A stretch of DNA of 21,989 nt from a virus, in IMG/VR virus record IMGVR_UViG_3300010149_000213, positions 1-21,989 of that record; one strand, 5' to 3'. Shown here in pieces: positions 1,433 to 13,285 of the stretch. The position numbers were made by a program, and so were the translations under genes. Every line of letters starts with the position of its first letter. Within the stretch, counting starts at the first letter, position 1. The notes beneath the pieces were generated by a model. It was not told the origin of the DNA and searched no databases. It saw only the letters and a program-made list of their open reading frames with translations.

Positions 1433-1898
1433 CGTTCGTGCTGCCGGCGCCATCATCACAGGGCGCAGGGGCGCAGGACGCAGGATCGAGCGACTCGATC
1501 CATGACTCACGGGCCGCAAGGCGCAGGGCGCAGGGCGCAGCAGACATATCACCATACCAGCGGGCCGCAGGACGCAGGACCGAGAGCCGCGAACCGTGCA
1601 ACTTGGCCGCTAAACCACCGTCAAACAAAAATACAAGCCTCGTAGAGGGGTCGTGGACCAAGAAAAAACTGACACCACCACACCGTGTATGCCCCAGATG
1701 CCAAGCAATCTGGGATTTTGAGATGGTAAAGCGGTCATTCTTGGTAATTTTTAGTTCAGCCCATACCGGCACACCATCCATGCACAGATATACGTCCGGC
1801 ATACCTTCACCGGCACGGTTCTCAATCCGCTGGCAGTGGGTCTTTTTCGGTAACTTCTGCCTCAATGAGTTCCATAGCTGGCGTTCTGTCCGAGGCAT
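1413..1898 (-). CDS. PD-(D/E)XK (VRR-NUC / resolvase-like) endonuclease
   Basis: A 161-residue protein. The ATG at 1898 has a GAGGG site about seven bases upstream; a TTG at 1904 is also in frame. Residues 1-12 (MPRTERQLWNSL) carry an early Glu (E5), then GMPDV with D35, then WAELK with E48 and K50, then a Gln-containing helix (SKSQIAWH). This is the order of PD-(D/E)XK nucleases of the VRR-NUC or Holliday-junction-resolvase type, which cleave DNA with a Mg2+ ion. The start overlaps the small terminase gene by 77 bases in another frame. The last ~50 residues are encoded across the heptamer arrays and look like low-complexity sequence rather than a domain. The stop lies within the terminator hairpin. 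A role in processing packaging substrates or branched DNA is inferred from the terminase linkage. Confidence 0.82.
   Translation of the reverse strand: MPRTERQLWNSLRQKLPKKTHCQRIENRAGEGMPDVYLCMDGVPVWAELKITKNDRFTISKSQIAWHLGHTRCGGVSFFLVHDPSTRLVFLFDGGLAAKLHGSRLSVLRPAARWYGDMSAAPCALRLAARESWIESLDPASCAPAPCDDGAGSTNENRGGL
1461..1580. repeat. Cluster of CGCAGG(A/G) heptamer repeats
   Basis: Three short arrays: GGGCGCAGGGGCGCAGGACGCAGGA (split over 1461-1485), a GGGCCGCAAGG(CGCAGGG)2 array at 1511-1540, and GGGCCGCAGGACGCAGGA at 1562-1579. The unit is seven bases, usually CGCAGGA or CGCAGGG, often headed by GGGC(C). The same unit occurs in modules A (18-36) and B (626-650). The arrays lie inside the 3' third of the minus-strand nuclease gene. 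Because seven is not a multiple of three, successive copies are read in different frames. Confidence 0.85.
1483..1501. repeat. Perfect 8-bp inverted repeat between heptamer arrays
   Basis: GGATCGAG (1483-1490) and CTCGATCC (1494-1501) are separated by CGA. It lies between two heptamer arrays inside the 3' end of the minus-strand nuclease gene. It could be a protein-binding palindrome or part of a small RNA hairpin. The sequence does not decide between these. Confidence 0.6.
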
Positions 1899-2421
1899 CT
1901 TCAACCCTCTTCATATTGTCAAAGGCATGTGGGTGTCGTTTGCGGAGATCATCGAGTCGGGCGACGATCTCTTCCCGCGACAGTTGATCAAGCTGGTGGA
2001 TGTGGTTCTGTTCCCGCCGGTCTATGGTCAGGCCACCGAGAGCGGACCTGATCTTCTCCGCATTGATGGCGGCAGAGAATTGACCAGACTCTTCTGCCCC
2101 GCGCGACAGTTCGTCAAGGCGTTTGAGTTGACCGACAAGGGTCACGCCGTATTTGCGCTCCCGCTCTTCCCGCAGTTCTTTGATCAGATCAGTGACCAGA
2201 GGGTAGGACGTACCATCCAGCAGTTTGTATGCGTGTTGCTTGGCGGCGTCGGGCGAGTAGCCAGCCAGCCTAGCGCACTCGGCATTACTGTATCGCCCCT
2301 CGACGTAGTACCGAGCAAACTCTCGTTGCCTGTTGGTCAGGCCAGCGGTCTTCTTTGGCAAGGTAAGCCCCCTATAGGTTTTTCTGTGGGTTTTTGTTTT
2401 TTGCAGAGCAAAGGGTCGCAC
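1822..2421 (-). CDS. terS: Terminase small subunit
   Basis: Up to 199 residues. The segment LTNRQREFARYYVEGRYSNA followed by ECARLAGYSPDAAKQHAYKLL is the classic N-terminal HTH domain of phage small terminase subunits (Terminase_2-like), which bind the packaging site and hand DNA to the large subunit. A helical middle (EELREER...QLKRLDEL) and an acidic tail follow. The outer start is GTG 2421, which has no clear ribosome site and sits just after a small hairpin. A TTG at 2361, preceded by AGGGGG, would give MPKKTAGLTNRQ and 179 residues, a layout usual for the family, and may be the real start. The 3' end overlaps the nuclease gene by 77 bases. No large subunit is seen in this window. Confidence 0.9.
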   Translation of the reverse strand: MRPFALQKTKTHRKTYRGLTLPKKTAGLTNRQREFARYYVEGRYSNAECARLAGYSPDAAKQHAYKLLDGTSYPLVTDLIKELREERERKYGVTLVGQLKRLDELSRGAEESGQFSAAINAEKIRSALGGLTIDRREQNHIHQLDQLSREEIVARLDDLRKRHPHAFDNMKRVEDASDRTPAMELIEAEVTEKDPLPAD

Positions 2422-2441: not shown

Positions 2442-2586
2442 AAGTGTGTTGGACGTGTTGAAGTGTGTTGAGATTCGGTCAATGTTTTCAACACTCTTTA
2501 CACTCAACACACTCAACACACCATTTCCCAAAAATTTTTTCCAAAAAGTTTTTCGTGTGGAAAAAGCTATAGGAGCGAACACACTT
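2442..2586. repeat. Iteron-like cluster in opposed orientations beside A/T tracts
   Basis: Seven copies of an AAGTGTGTTGA-like element. Forward copies lie at 2442-2452, 2451-2461 (degenerate) and 2461-2471. Reverse copies (TCAACACACTT type) lie at 2488-2498, 2504-2514, 2513-2522 and 2576-2586. The forward group faces the reverse group around about 2480. Between the last two reverse copies lie AAAAATTTTTT (2530-2540), AAAAAGTTTTT (2543-2553), and a 7-bp inverted repeat TTTTTCC/GGAAAAA (2536-2542, 2559-2565). This layout fits either a replication origin with iterons and an unwinding region or a multi-site operator between divergent transcription units. Confidence 0.7.
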
Positions 2587-2601: not shown

Positions 2602-2617
2602 ATGGCATGGGATAATA
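2602..2617 (+). promoter_or_regulatory. Extended -10 promoter element (16-nt motif, copy 1)
   Basis: ATGGCATGGGATAATA contains TGGGATAAT (2608-2616), an extended -10 box, with no good -35. The same 16 bases recur at 6714-6729, again just upstream of a plus-strand gene block. A related TGCATGGGACTATAT follows at 2641-2655. It probably drives the operon that starts at 2695. This is inferred from the motif and its position. Confidence 0.5.
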
Positions 2618-2694
2618 TGAGATAACTCCTTATCGGGTACTGCATGGGACTATATCGGTTCAAGTACCAAGGTTCAAGCTACACGGAGATAGTT

Positions 2695-6713: not shown

Positions 6714-6729
6714 ATGGCATGGGATAATA
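6714..6729 (+). promoter_or_regulatory. Extended -10 promoter element (16-nt motif, copy 2)
   Basis: ATGGCATGGGATAATA here is identical to 2602-2617. It contains TGGGATAAT (6720-6728) with no clear -35 box, and lies in the only real intergenic gap of the operon (6701-6761). It probably supplies extra transcription for the genes from 6762 through the SNF2 helicase. Inferred from the exact repeat and the position. Confidence 0.52.
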
Positions 6730-6761
6730 AAGTATCATATGTCATTTCAGGGAGATTGGAC

Positions 6762-6950
6762 ATGAGCGAAGAAACAAAACTGATGCCAGAAGCAGAGGCA
6801 AGAACTGTTATGGAGTGGAGCACCGCTGTTCAGGTGATTGAGTGGTGCGTCGATGAGATGCTGGACAAGATCGCCGAGTATCCGGACGACTATGGTCCGG
6901 GCAGGACCGACGAGGTCATGGAAGCATGGGAACGGATTCTTAGAGGGTGA
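6762..6950 (+). CDS. Small acidic hypothetical protein
   Basis: A 62-residue protein. ATG 6762 follows AGGGAG (6749-6754). An upstream in-frame ATG at 6714 lies inside the promoter-like motif and is unlikely. The protein is helical and acidic: MSEETKLMPEAEARTVMEWS, VIEWCVDEMLDKIAEYPDDY and DEVMEAWERILRG. No known family is recognised. It is the first gene after the internal promoter. Confidence 0.75.
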   Translation: MSEETKLMPEAEARTVMEWSTAVQVIEWCVDEMLDKIAEYPDDYGPGRTDEVMEAWERILRG

Positions 6951-9661: not shown

Positions 9662-9805
9662 GTGGACAAGACGAAGTACAAATCTGTTGCAGTGTCGATA
9701 GAGATTTACAAAAAGTTACAGAAGCTGGCAGAGGACAGCGACAGAAGTGTGAGTCGTCAGATTGCACACATGGTCAAATTACAGGAGCAGCAGAAAGCTG
9801 CTTGA
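9662..9805 (+). CDS. Ribbon-helix-helix DNA-binding protein
   Basis: A 47-residue protein with GTG start at 9662, AGGAG at 9651-9655, ending at TGA 9803-9805. The sequence is MDKTKYKSVAVSIEIYKKLQ, then KLAEDSDRSVSRQIAHMVKL, then a Gln/Lys tail. A short beta strand (YKSVAVSI), a first helix (EIYKKLQKLAEDS) and a second helix (SVSRQIAHMVK) are the textbook Arc/CopG layout, in which a dimer inserts a two-stranded ribbon into the DNA major groove. As the first gene after the promoter at 9597, it may regulate itself and the replication operon. The family call rests on pattern alone. Confidence 0.8.
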   Translation: MDKTKYKSVAVSIEIYKKLQKLAEDSDRSVSRQIAHMVKLQEQQKAA

Positions 9806-9915: not shown

Positions 9916-10485
9916 ATGAGCGATGTGTTCTCGCTATTTGAAGAAGAGGCAGTCAACGCCGACAAGTTTGACAACGTGCAGAAGGAAGGCGCAAGCGACC
10001 TTTCCAACCTGATCCGTCGATCCCTCGAGATCGATAAGCAGATCGCAGATGCAGAACAGTTTCTGAAAGATCTGAAATTTAAAAAGCGCAAGATCAACGA
10101 AGAAGATATTCCAATGCTCATGGAAGAGATGGGCATGGACAGCGTCACCGTGGACGGTAACAAGGTTACTCTGCGGCAGTTCGTTCACGCGCGGATTACA
10201 GAGGACAAGCGCAATGAAGCGTTCGGTTATCTGCGATCCATTGGCGAGGCCGACATCATAAAAAATGATGTAACGATCTCGTTCTCAGCAGGACAAGACA
10301 ACATGGCTGGCTCGGTGGTCGATGACCTCCGGCAACAGTACGGTCTTGATCCGTCACAAAAGACTCACGTACATCCGTCCACCCTGAAGGCGTGGGTCAA
10401 GAACAGAATCGAAGCCGGCAAGGAATTGGACTTCGACACATTTGGGGTTTTTGTTGGCACAGAAGCCAAGATTTCAAGGAGCTAG
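9916..10485 (+). CDS. Conserved phage protein next to SSB (FGVFVG motif)
   Basis: A 189-residue protein starting at ATG 9916 with AAGGAG six bases upstream. Residues ~30-75 form a charged coiled coil (SLEIDKQIADAEQFLKDLKF) ending in EEDIPMLMEEMGMDS. The second half has DLIKNEV-like IIKNDVTISFSAGQ, then KTHVHPSTLKAWVKNRIEAG and a terminal FGVFVGTEAKI. This arrangement is common in phage proteins encoded beside SSB-like and primase genes, including the HPxTLKA and FGVFV blocks, but I know of no assigned biochemical role. Its position suggests a replication or recombination accessory, possibly one that binds DNA as a dimer. Confidence 0.85.
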   Translation: MSDVFSLFEEEAVNADKFDNVQKEGASDLSNLIRRSLEIDKQIADAEQFLKDLKFKKRKINEEDIPMLMEEMGMDSVTVDGNKVTLRQFVHARITEDKRNEAFGYLRSIGEADIIKNDVTISFSAGQDNMAGSVVDDLRQQYGLDPSQKTHVHPSTLKAWVKNRIEAGKELDFDTFGVFVGTEAKISRS

Positions 10486-10487
10486 TG

Positions 10488-10817
10488 ATGGAAGACGTAA
10501 GAACTCTTTACAGAACAGATGCTCCGGATACGAGCATCGAGGCTGCACAAAGTATAGACCCGACAAAGCTAGAGGGTTTGGTGCTGCGGGCGATAAAGTC
10601 CAGCCCAAACGGGTGTATTTCGGATGATGTTAGAAGGTTCTGTAGGGAAAACTACAACATCAAATCGTATTCTTCGGTGACAGCAAGGTTTGCTTCCTTG
10701 GCGAGGAAGGGACTGATTAAGTACACGGGTGAAAGAAGGCCCGGTGACAGTGGGAGAGGCCAGCGAGTTATGGTGGCTAATCTCGATAACAACATCGAAC
10801 AAGTGATGGGGAACTAA
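10488..10817 (+). CDS. Winged-helix DNA-binding protein
   Basis: A 109-residue protein starting at ATG 10488 with AAGGAG at 10476-10481. Residues ~27-97 look like a winged helix: helix 1 (LEGLVLRAIKSSPNG), a short helix (ISDDVRRFCREN), a recognition helix (SYSSVTARFASLARKGLIKY), and a wing with GERRPGDSGRGQRVMVA. The pattern 'VTARFxxLxRKGLI...TGxRRPxxSGR' is typical of small phage regulators and replication proteins. It lies between a conserved phage gene and the SSB-like gene. It could be a regulator of the operon or an origin-binding accessory; the sequence does not decide. Confidence 0.82.
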   Translation: MEDVRTLYRTDAPDTSIEAAQSIDPTKLEGLVLRAIKSSPNGCISDDVRRFCRENYNIKSYSSVTARFASLARKGLIKYTGERRPGDSGRGQRVMVANLDNNIEQVMGN

Positions 10818-10818
10818 C

Positions 10819-11631
10819 ATGGCTGGTACAGCAGTAGCAGATAAGAAAGAAACCGCACCGTCCACAATCTTTGCTGACATGGCAGAGTTTGCAGGCGAGG
10901 GCATGGATTCAATTGGCACAGAGGATATGCAGATTCCGTTCTTGCGGATTCTCCAGCCTCTGTCGCCAGAGGTGCAGAAGGGTGACGCCAAGTTCATCAA
11001 GGGCGCATCCGCAGGTGATCTATTTAACACCGTTACTCAGCAGGTCTGGGACGGCGAGGAAGGCGTAGTAGTTATTCCGTGTGGGTACACCGTCAAGTAC
11101 CTCGAGTTCGGATTGCGTGAGGCTGGTGGAGGTTTCCACGGTGAGTTGGATCCTAATTCACCAGACGTGAAGAACACTACACGCAATGGCGCGGCAGAAA
11201 TACTACCGTCGGGTAATGAGCTTGTCCGTTCGGCACAGCATCTTGTGTTGCTTGTTGATCTTAAAACAGGTCATACACAGCAGGCGATCTGTGACATGAA
11301 GAAGACACAGTTGAAGGTGTCTCGTCGCTGGAATACGCAGATGCGTATGGTGCAGTACGAAGGACCACAAGGACTGTTCAACCCACCGATGTGGGGCACT
11401 GCCTGGAAGATGACGGTGATCTCGGAAAGCAACGACAAGGGTACGTGGTACAACTATGGCGTGTCTCGTGTCGAGCCGACCGAAGTTCCAAGTTCCGCGT
11501 TTCACGCTGCGAAAGCATTCTTCCAATCGTTCCGTTCCGGCGATGTAAAGACACAAGCTGGTACACAGGACGAGATGAGCAAGCAGTCGAACACTGCCTC
11601 CAGCAACACTGACGACGATATCCCCTTCTAA
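10819..11631 (+). CDS. Phage single-stranded DNA-binding protein (SSB-like)
   Basis: A 270-residue protein starting at ATG 10819, one base after the previous stop, with a GGGGA upstream. The core from ~25 to 225 includes DMQIPFLRILQPLSPEVQKG, then GDLFNTVTQQVWDGEEGVVV, and a Trp/Tyr-rich region (RWNTQMRMVQYEG, WYNYGVSRVEPTE). These resemble proteins encoded beside primase and polymerase genes in many aquatic phages and often described as ssDNA-binding. The C-terminal ~40 residues are a Ser/Thr/Asn-rich linker ending in DDDIPF, the same last six residues as E. coli SSB, a tip that binds replication partners. Expected role: coating ssDNA at the phage fork. The call rests on the tail, the context and resemblance; the fold itself is not proven. 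Confidence 0.8.
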   Translation: MAGTAVADKKETAPSTIFADMAEFAGEGMDSIGTEDMQIPFLRILQPLSPEVQKGDAKFIKGASAGDLFNTVTQQVWDGEEGVVVIPCGYTVKYLEFGLREAGGGFHGELDPNSPDVKNTTRNGAAEILPSGNELVRSAQHLVLLVDLKTGHTQQAICDMKKTQLKVSRRWNTQMRMVQYEGPQGLFNPPMWGTAWKMTVISESNDKGTWYNYGVSRVEPTEVPSSAFHAAKAFFQSFRSGDVKTQAGTQDEMSKQSNTASSNTDDDIPF

Positions 11632-11755
11632 TCCACCGGGGTTTTGACCGTGGTACAGGGGGCTGCGGAAAGATTAACAGGTCCGGTGGGTGTGCTCCTT
11701 TCGCGCACAAAGTTTGCTTGTTGATCACCCCCTGCCTTTTTTTATGGGGGCAGGT
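11632..11755 (+). other. Structured intergenic region between SSB-like and primase genes
   Basis: CCACCGG (11633-11639) can pair with CCGGTGG (11683-11689). CAGGGGG (11656-11662) can pair with CCCCCTG (11728-11734), followed closely by seven T (11737-11743), a possible terminator with a long internal loop. A small GTGTGC/GCGCAC hairpin lies between. The two long pairings exclude each other, an arrangement that could allow attenuation. The last 12 bases carry the purine-rich ribosome site of the primase. Confidence 0.4.
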
Positions 11756-13285
11756 ATGAACCTAGCACAACGGTTCATGGCTGCGTTTGAAGGATTCAGC
11801 GCAGCACATGGACAGACACAAATATCAGAAGAACGTCGAGCCGGTAAGCAGAAGGCCAAGTCCTTTATCGTACGTCAGCCGCTCACGCTCGAACTTATTG
11901 AAGGGCATCTTGCCGGCGCCAAGGGTGTTGGCTCGATCCCGATTAAGGAAAACAACAAGTGTTCCTTTGGCGCACTCGACATCGATCAGTACCCGCTGGA
12001 CCTTGCGGCAATAGACAAGAGGCTACGAGACAATGACATCCCCGCTGTGGTCTGCCGTTCGAAATCAGGTGGCGCGCATATCTTCTTCTTTTTCACAGAG
12101 GAGATTGGCGCTGGCGAGTTCCGTGACAAGGCGGGTGAGATCAGTGCCTTTCTTGGCTACGGCGGTTGCGAGGTGTTCCCAAAGCAGGAGCAGCTTCTCG
12201 TCGAGCGTGGTGATGTTGGTAACTTTATTAACCTTCCGTACTTTGATTCGGAACAGACGATGCGTTACGCCATTAAGGAAGATGGCGACGAAGCAGAGAT
12301 CGAGGAGTTTCTAGAGCTTGTTGAAGCTCGACGGTGTACTCCAGACGCTTTCGTTACACTGTCCCTCGGGCGCAGCCTCGACGAGTTTATGGAATACCCA
12401 CCCTGTATGCAGAGCCTGTTCTCGGACGGCGTACCAGAGGGAACGCGGAACATCGTAATGTTCGGCACGTGCGTGGCGTGTAAGAAAGAGCAGCCAGAAA
12501 ATTGGAAGGGCAGGCTCGAAGAGATCAACATGTCTCATGTGCAGCCTCCGCTGCCTGCATCCGAGATGGTGATCATCCAGACACAACACGAGAAGAAAGA
12601 GTACGGTTTCCCCTGCCAGCAGGAGCCGTTCAAGTCTCGCTGCAACAAGACCCTGTGCAAAACGAAGCAGTTCGGAATCGGTGGGGGCAGTGCCTCCGCC
12701 GACATCACTGGGCTGTGCGTGGTCAAGTCGGAGCCGCCGGTCTGGTTCTGCGACGTTGATGGCAAGCGTGTAGAGTTGATTACCGAGGAGCTACAGACAC
12801 CGCAGAAGTTCCAGAAGGCATGTATGGAACAGATCCATCAAATGCCTCCGCTAATGAAGTTGGGCGACTGGCAGGCTATGGTCACGATGCTGATGTCCGA
12901 CATGAGCGAGATCGAGGTGCCGGAGGAACTGACATACAAGGGTCAGTTCATGGACTTCCTCGAAGAGTTCTGCACCGGCAGGGTTCAAGCTGCGAGTCCC
13001 GAGGAACTAGCACTGGGCAAGCCGTGGACCGAGGACGGGCTGACCTACTTCCGCATCGAGTCTCTGATCAAGTACCTGCGGAACAACCGCTTCGACACCT
13101 ACAGTCGTGGTCAGATTCAGGAGCGCCTGAAAGAACTGAATCCAGACGGTAAAGCGTCGGGGACAAAGAGCTTCAAAGGCTCTGACAGCCAGTGGAAAAC
13201 AGTTCGAGTCTGGCACATCCCTGCCTTCAGTCCCGAGGTCGAAGCTCCGGACATCGACATACAAGGGGAGGACATTCCGTTCTGA
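11756..13285 (+). CDS. Archaeo-eukaryotic-type primase (TOTE-like)
   Basis: A 509-residue protein. ATG 11756 has GGGGG about six bases upstream; ATG 11744 is an alternative. The catalytic AEP signature is clear: FGALDID with D75 and D77, RSKSGGAHIFFFF (101-113) with H108, EVFPKQ (139-144), and GNFINLPYF (155-163), as in primases of the TOTE type. It makes RNA or DNA primers using two metal ions. A Cys group follows (C239, C242; C287, C296, C301 in FPCQQEPFKSRCNKTLCKTK, then FGIGG), probably a zinc or Fe-S site of the PriCT type. The C terminus ends in GEDIPF, mirroring the SSB tip. It is followed by the UvrD-like helicase with a TGATG overlap. Confidence 0.9.
   Translation: MNLAQRFMAAFEGFSAAHGQTQISEERRAGKQKAKSFIVRQPLTLELIEGHLAGAKGVGSIPIKENNKCSFGALDIDQYPLDLAAIDKRLRDNDIPAVVCRSKSGGAHIFFFFTEEIGAGEFRDKAGEISAFLGYGGCEVFPKQEQLLVERGDVGNFINLPYFDSEQTMRYAIKEDGDEAEIEEFLELVEARRCTPDAFVTLSLGRSLDEFMEYPPCMQSLFSDGVPEGTRNIVMFGTCVACKKEQPENWKGRLEEINMSHVQPPLPASEMVIIQTQHEKKEYGFPCQQEPFKSRCNKTLCKTKQFGIGGGSASADITGLCVVKSEPPVWFCDVDGKRVELITEELQTPQKFQKACMEQIHQMPPLMKLGDWQAMVTMLMSDMSEIEVPEELTYKGQFMDFLEEFCTGRVQAASPEELALGKPWTEDGLTYFRIESLIKYLRNNRFDTYSRGQIQERLKELNPDGKASGTKSFKGSDSQWKTVRVWHIPAFSPEVEAPDIDIQGEDIPF

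Follow-up and report, generated by a model that had tools for sequence, protein, structure and literature searches.

A probable replication origin whose repeat units co-vary with the wing of the phage primase in an uncultured phage family

The window, that is, the whole stretch of DNA analysed here, is a fragment of 21,989 bases that corresponds to positions 1–21,989 of the IMG/VR record IMGVR_UViG_3300010149_000213 and belongs to an uncultured phage family, apparently of marine origin. As had been described, a block of short repeats parts the minus-strand terminase from the plus-strand operon, and both arms of its units sit in that gap (Table 1). The terminase small subunit (TerS) was used as the query for relatives, which yielded 80 viral contigs, and the gaps between terminase and early operon were compared in about 80 distinct relatives. 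In this gap, three units of 9–10 bp oppose three others and are accompanied by an A/T-rich stretch; this layout is the same in every relative with sufficient upstream sequence, and the letters of the units vary. On the terminase side, a GP88-like gene (720–1385 of the window) is of a type that is rare among relatives, most of which have another version of GP88 there.

The right-hand unit has the form YTYR-NNN-CR, in which the outer bases are common to relatives and about three central bases, hereafter termed the word, vary. Sequence scans confirmed the opposed repeat cluster of the preliminary description, although its count of seven copies of an 11-mer was wrong, as comparison with relatives gives three left and three right units. 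In the whole window, 13 matches to the 11-mer with up to two mismatches were found versus 7.5 expected (13 or more in 4 of 100 shuffles), and 6 of the 13 fall inside the 145 bp previously delimited. The three right units are tandem 9-mers (2494–2520). Two of the seven described copies were rejected as units: 2488–2498 lies partly on constant spacer, and its CAACACTC is also present in phages with a different word, while 2576–2586 is constant flank. The cluster carrying the word, which has six units and is non-coding, was found at a single place in each of nine genomes examined, and a search for a guide RNA or further word copies outside the block returned only stray single matches.

Table 1. 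Features of the repeat block, its neighbours and the proposed initiator (window coordinates)
Feature	Position	Strand	Basis
Terminase small subunit (TerS), constant neighbour	1822..2421	-	phrog_51, PF03592
E box, left copy (consensus MTATARTGTTTTCTRYGGG)	2372..2390	+	conserved inverted pair
Left unit L1, word GTGTTG	2442..2452	+	repeat scan, relatives
Left unit L2 (ACGTGTTGA)	2453..2461	+	comparison with relatives
Left unit L3	2462..2471	+	repeat scan, relatives
Right unit R1 (CTCTTTACA), degenerate here	2494..2502	-	aligns with CTCGTTACA in 99% identical L095
Right unit R2 (CTCAACACA)	2503..2511	-	comparison with relatives
Right unit R3 (CTCAACACA)	2512..2520	-	comparison with relatives
A/T-rich stretch, candidate unwinding element	2524..2553	.	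80% A+T
E box, right copy	2554..2572	-	conserved inverted pair
Two copies of GCATGGGANNATAT, promoter- or operator-like, early operon start	2605..2656	+	sequence scans, relatives
47-aa ribbon-helix-helix (RHH) protein, conserved	9662..9805	+	family comparison
Archaeo-eukaryotic primase (AEP-TOTE), proposed initiator	11690..13285	+	PF22548, phrog_21866
C-terminal winged-helix domain of the primase	12914..13282	+	AlphaFold2 model, last 123 residues, mean pLDDT 85.8
Primase residues 473-483, second helix (RGQIQERLKEL), nearly invariant	13106..13138	+	alignment, AlphaFold2
Primase residues 490-511, wing hairpin with co-varying 492, 494, 500, 504	13157..13222	+	co-variation, AlphaFold2

The A/T tracts noted earlier are real: the A/T-rich stretch compares with 48% A+T in the window, and its level is reached by 0.02% of 30-bp stretches. 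Over 69 relatives, the 35 bp to the left of the right E box have a mean A+T content of 82%. The E boxes, a larger inverted repeat (2372–2390/2554–2572) that encloses the block and was missed previously, form an inverted pair of about 19-bp boxes in most of the approximately 80 relatives, with a spacing of 175–184 bp. Genomes with an unambiguous pair contain no further site equally near the consensus; some clades have one weak box or one that escaped the search pattern used. The opposed arms of the block pair as a hairpin in all six blocks tested (z −3.2 to −8.0), including the window (about −31 kcal/mol, z −3.2). At the early operon start, a CATGGGATAATATG-like motif occurs at 2606–2619 and 2643–2656, with a third copy at 6718–6731; such copies are also found in promoter-like sequence of relatives, which suggests a shared operator or activator site.

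Within one phage, most units share the same word, and phages that are 98–99% identical elsewhere differ in precisely these bases. Between the window and L095, which are 98–99% identical, the block differs mainly at three bases per unit, and the flanks are about 96–99% identical. The right-hand unit is CTCAACACA in the window, CTCGTTACA in L005–L009 (whose TerS is 99–100% identical), CTCGTACCA in L013, CTTGAGACA in L027, TTTGTAACG in L036, and CTTGCCACA in L081. Words are swapped within arm-specific frames that remain fixed; some genomes have mixed words, the left arm is less regular than the right, and the arms often mismatch. Relatives that retain the flanks but lack the 11-mer would be a misleading argument against the element, because in many close relatives another word occupies the same frame. 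The statement that no described phage element has this motif holds for the letters, but the conserved part is the architecture rather than the letters.

Among the compared core proteins, one tracks the word, namely the primase, and within it the wing of the C-terminal winged-helix domain (residues 492, 494, 500, and 504). In near-identical relatives, the primase is 98% identical, and its differences are gathered at residues 483–505. Residue 492 and the word are paired as Q with GRTAC, L with GTTAC, H with GTAACA, K with TCTYA, R with GGAAC, F with GTGAC, V or A with GTAACS, and, in the window, T with GTGTTG. The four commonest pairs (Q-GRTAC, L-GTTAC, H-GTAACA, and K-TCTYA) recur on primase backbones that are only 70–80% alike. 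Pairs of genomes that change both residue and word on a compared backbone that is 99–100% identical are L221/L226, G007/L162, and G019/L168; between L221 and L226 the compared backbone is identical, and Q gives way to L as GRTAC gives way to GTTAC. In L168, the wing was read before the block, which then showed the expected TCTTA. Genomes added after the rule had been noticed also fit it, namely L226, L227, and L230 (L-GTTAC), L221 and L229 (Q-GRTAC), and L249 (A-GTAACS).

For the statistics, the word classes TTACA/TTACG, TAACG/TAACC, GTACA/GTACG, and TCTCA/TCTTA were merged after the data had been seen, some words that the automatic caller had mis-framed were set by eye, and L148 was excluded because its primase (10001–11593) is broken in frame inside the wing region, by an assembly error or a real lesion. 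Across 31 distinct genomes, residues 484–506 were associated with the word after correction for the remaining primase (partial Mantel r 0.53, p 0.0002, 5000 permutations), and the top single columns across the whole primase were 492, 494, 504, and 500. When 11 core proteins were scanned in backbone-corrected windows of 12 residues, the best windows lay at primase 487–493 (r 0.53–0.60, with 0.60 at 491), and the maximum outside the primase was 0.36. On the primase-backbone tree of the 31 genomes, 16 word-class changes, 17 residue-492 changes, and 18 joint changes were counted, whereas shuffled labels (2000 trials) gave a mean of 26 joint changes and a minimum of 22. Residues 492 and 494 alone gave the right word class in about 24 of the 31 genomes, with relatives of more than 95% identity excluded, versus 9 of 31 for the backbone. 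As an illustration from non-independent pairs with at least 88% backbone identity, 32 pairs differ in both residue and word, 13 in neither, 3 in the word only (by one base in two cases and owing to L138 in the third), and 1 in the residue only, also owing to L138.

On its own, residue 492 does not specify the word completely, because Q meets two words (GRTAC and GGGAC) and GTAACS meets three residues (A, V, and once T). The only clear exception is L138, in which the primase is that of the window, the block reads GTAACG, and TerS belongs to another lineage; it is a mosaic whose terminase side is as in L141, while its early region is 99.5% identical to the window, and may be either a chimeric contig or a true recombinant. 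The L095 contig ends before its primase wing, and its type of word is thus not paired with its own primase. Plain linkage does not explain the match of word and wing, because the two are separated by 10 kb that include non-associating genes.

With regard to other proteins as readers of the word, little or no association was found for TerS, the RHH protein, the SNF2 helicase, nucleases, the gp33- and gp34-like proteins, the UvrD helicase, DUF6378, and DNA polymerase. Near-identical relatives with different words share the RHH protein and the SNF2 helicase at 100% identity, and their TerS, gp33, gp34, and DNA polymerase are at least 98–99% identical wherever the same lineage is present. The GP88-like gene beside terS was rejected, as L015 has the window's word but the other GP88 type, and so was the small gene at 6714–6950, which some relatives lack or carry in versions unrelated to the word; in L138, this gene has the window's allele although the word is different. 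This small gene has two alleles that differ by 36 substitutions in about 80 bp (residues 43–67) in phages otherwise about 99% identical. Of the binders proposed in the preliminary description, the winged-helix gene at 10485–10817 is missing from several relatives that retain the block, and the RHH protein finds no support as a reader of the word; binding is likely to be due to the C-terminal winged-helix domain of the primase, a candidate not named there.

The primase is a protein of 531 aa, and its true start is probably near 11756. Its sole Pfam match is AEP-TOTE; it has no SF3 helicase, and a UvrD-like helicase is encoded by a separate gene. A primase domain and a predicted winged-helix domain are thus combined in one polypeptide (PF22548; model), and the co-varying residues lie on the hairpin 490–496/502–511 of the AlphaFold2 model. 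This domain would bind DNA. The catalytic half resembles, by sequence, 7nqd/7nqf, an entry labelled as a TPR_REGION protein that we take to be a CRISPR-associated prim-pol. A PDB fold search with the C-terminal domain gave nothing significant and just weak winged-helix matches. Similar domains were found by fold search at the ends of other phage and viral primases, e.g., that of Dinoroseobacter phage R5C. This cultured phage (vB_DshS-R5C, KY606587; L336:4990–5300) has a 580-bp intergenic stretch in which an inverted repeat (TATAGATCATAGAC/GTCTATGATCTATA) encloses repeated GTGTGTCTCGTGTG; this stretch may be an origin of a similar kind and could serve as a model for laboratory work. The block itself was not found in a coarse scan of partial records of the cultured relatives HTVC023P, HTVC027P, 023Pt_psg01, and DSL-LC04.

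Taken with the co-variation, the conserved architecture makes it very likely, in our judgement, that the block is the phage's replication origin, bound by its own primase. Clustered short repeats in one non-coding place and an A/T-rich neighbour, as looked for in iteron origins, are both present. An origin with an initiator protein had been proposed before, and it is the best-supported reading on account of the co-variation; GC skew, which does turn near the block, gives no proof, as gene orientation turns there too and confounds it.

The same pairing would also be seen if the primase read the block for another purpose, for example to regulate its own early transcription or to choose a priming site on an already opened strand. 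The block lies at the early promoter, and co-variation shows an interaction rather than its consequence; however, a primase as the reader, a unique site per genome, the A/T-rich neighbour, and the switch of strand orientation all fit an origin, and this alternative is regarded as improbable.

The chance is smaller still that the block is a packaging site (pac or cos) bound by TerS. The pac site of phage P1 has two clusters of repeats, and the block resembles it in adjoining terS, in having two short-repeat clusters around a centre, and in being conserved together with terS. TerS could read the constant bases of the units. Nevertheless, it is 97–100% identical among phages with at least five different words (100% in L095; L138 and L141 have another lineage), its best 12-residue window is weakly associated with the word (r 0.25), and it is the primase wing that tracks the word instead. 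To a large operator or centromere-like site, at which the RHH protein or another regulator would control divergent promoters, we give equally little credence. RHH proteins often bind short tandem repeats, the position is divergent with promoter-like elements adjoining, and the RHH protein, short enough for gene callers to miss, is retained at a constant position in the family. Yet it does not change between phages with different words (RHH windows, r 0.22); it could bind the conserved bases and is a candidate for the E boxes or the promoters. Least probable of all is that the words have no reader, the units owing their likeness to slippage and hairpin-templated correction, or being selected for stem-loop pairing only: the arms do pair strongly and right-arm units appear homogenised (L011 versus L012), but words are exchanged inside fixed arm-specific frames between arms that often mismatch, and co-variation with a protein encoded 10 kb away would be expected from neither process.

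As an origin read by its primase, the block recalls several known systems. The iterons of lambdoid phages lie within the gene of the O protein, whereas the site and its proposed reader are 10 kb apart here, and O is not a primase. The P4 alpha protein and its iteron origin were reportedly described by Yeo et al. in 2002. Both P4 alpha and the replication protein of pRN1 join a primase to a winged-helix domain, and P4 alpha binds origin repeats (PMC4234260). A winged-helix domain on a primase polypeptide that binds origin repeats is described for P4 alpha and proposed here; however, P4 alpha unites a Toprim primase and a helicase in one protein, while the present protein is an archaeo-eukaryotic primase without a helicase domain, and its opposed 9–10 bp units carry a word that diversifies with the wing. 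The pRN1 origin, used by ORF904, is a stem-loop of about 100 bp rich in GTG/CAC motifs, and pRN1 and pRN2 differ most within it (PMC4234260). ORF904 is likewise an archaeo-eukaryotic primase with a C-terminal winged helix, and its origin, like the block, can fold into a long stem-loop containing GTG/CAC; by analogy, the stem-loop may additionally be important here. In contrast, ORF904 carries an SF3 helicase, its specific binding was undetected, pRN1 lacks iterons, and no word code has been described for it. Because the helicase is absent from its polypeptide, the window's primase is not filed with P4 alpha and pRN1, though it would work like them. The lambdoid O protein is a phage initiator reading ori iterons (PMC7466680), as is proposed here. 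In PLE, RepA and its iterons form the initiator–iteron pair of a phage-borne replicon, and hostile nucleases, such as the phage nuclease Odn, have been suggested to select for iteron change (PMC7145576, PMC8263062). RepA is, however, a RepA_N initiator and no primase, and its iterons are about 30 bp long with few variants, versus many words in one phage family here.

The mechanism that we propose is as follows. Briefly, several primase molecules would occupy the units. Helix 473–483, which hardly varies, would touch the conserved outer bases (YTYR...CR), and the variable wing would touch the word. The primase would thereby be brought to the A/T-rich stretch, where the strands would open, and the UvrD-like helicase, DNA polymerase A, and other replication proteins would be recruited at the opened stretch. 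A primase mismatched to the word should not start replication there, so that cross-firing of origins between related phages sharing a cell would not occur.

It is conceivable, although we hold this only tentatively, that many mutually exclusive primase–origin pairs circulate family-wide, the wing residues and the three-base word acting like a mating type in which rare words are favoured. If true, such pairing would bar co-infecting relatives, satellites, and origin-cutting nucleases from each other's origins. Possible drivers of word change are hostile nucleases, by analogy with PLE and Odn, or the avoidance of cross-firing in mixed infections. No report of primase–origin word pairing in phages was found in the open-access literature. 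For an uncultured phage family, a probable origin and its probable initiator can thus be assigned together from sequence alone. The family also offers a natural specificity series, in which otherwise matching proteins with a few changed residues go with a different word, and this should be useful for understanding how winged-helix domains read DNA. It raises the question of what makes a lytic phage keep altering the lock and key of its own replication.
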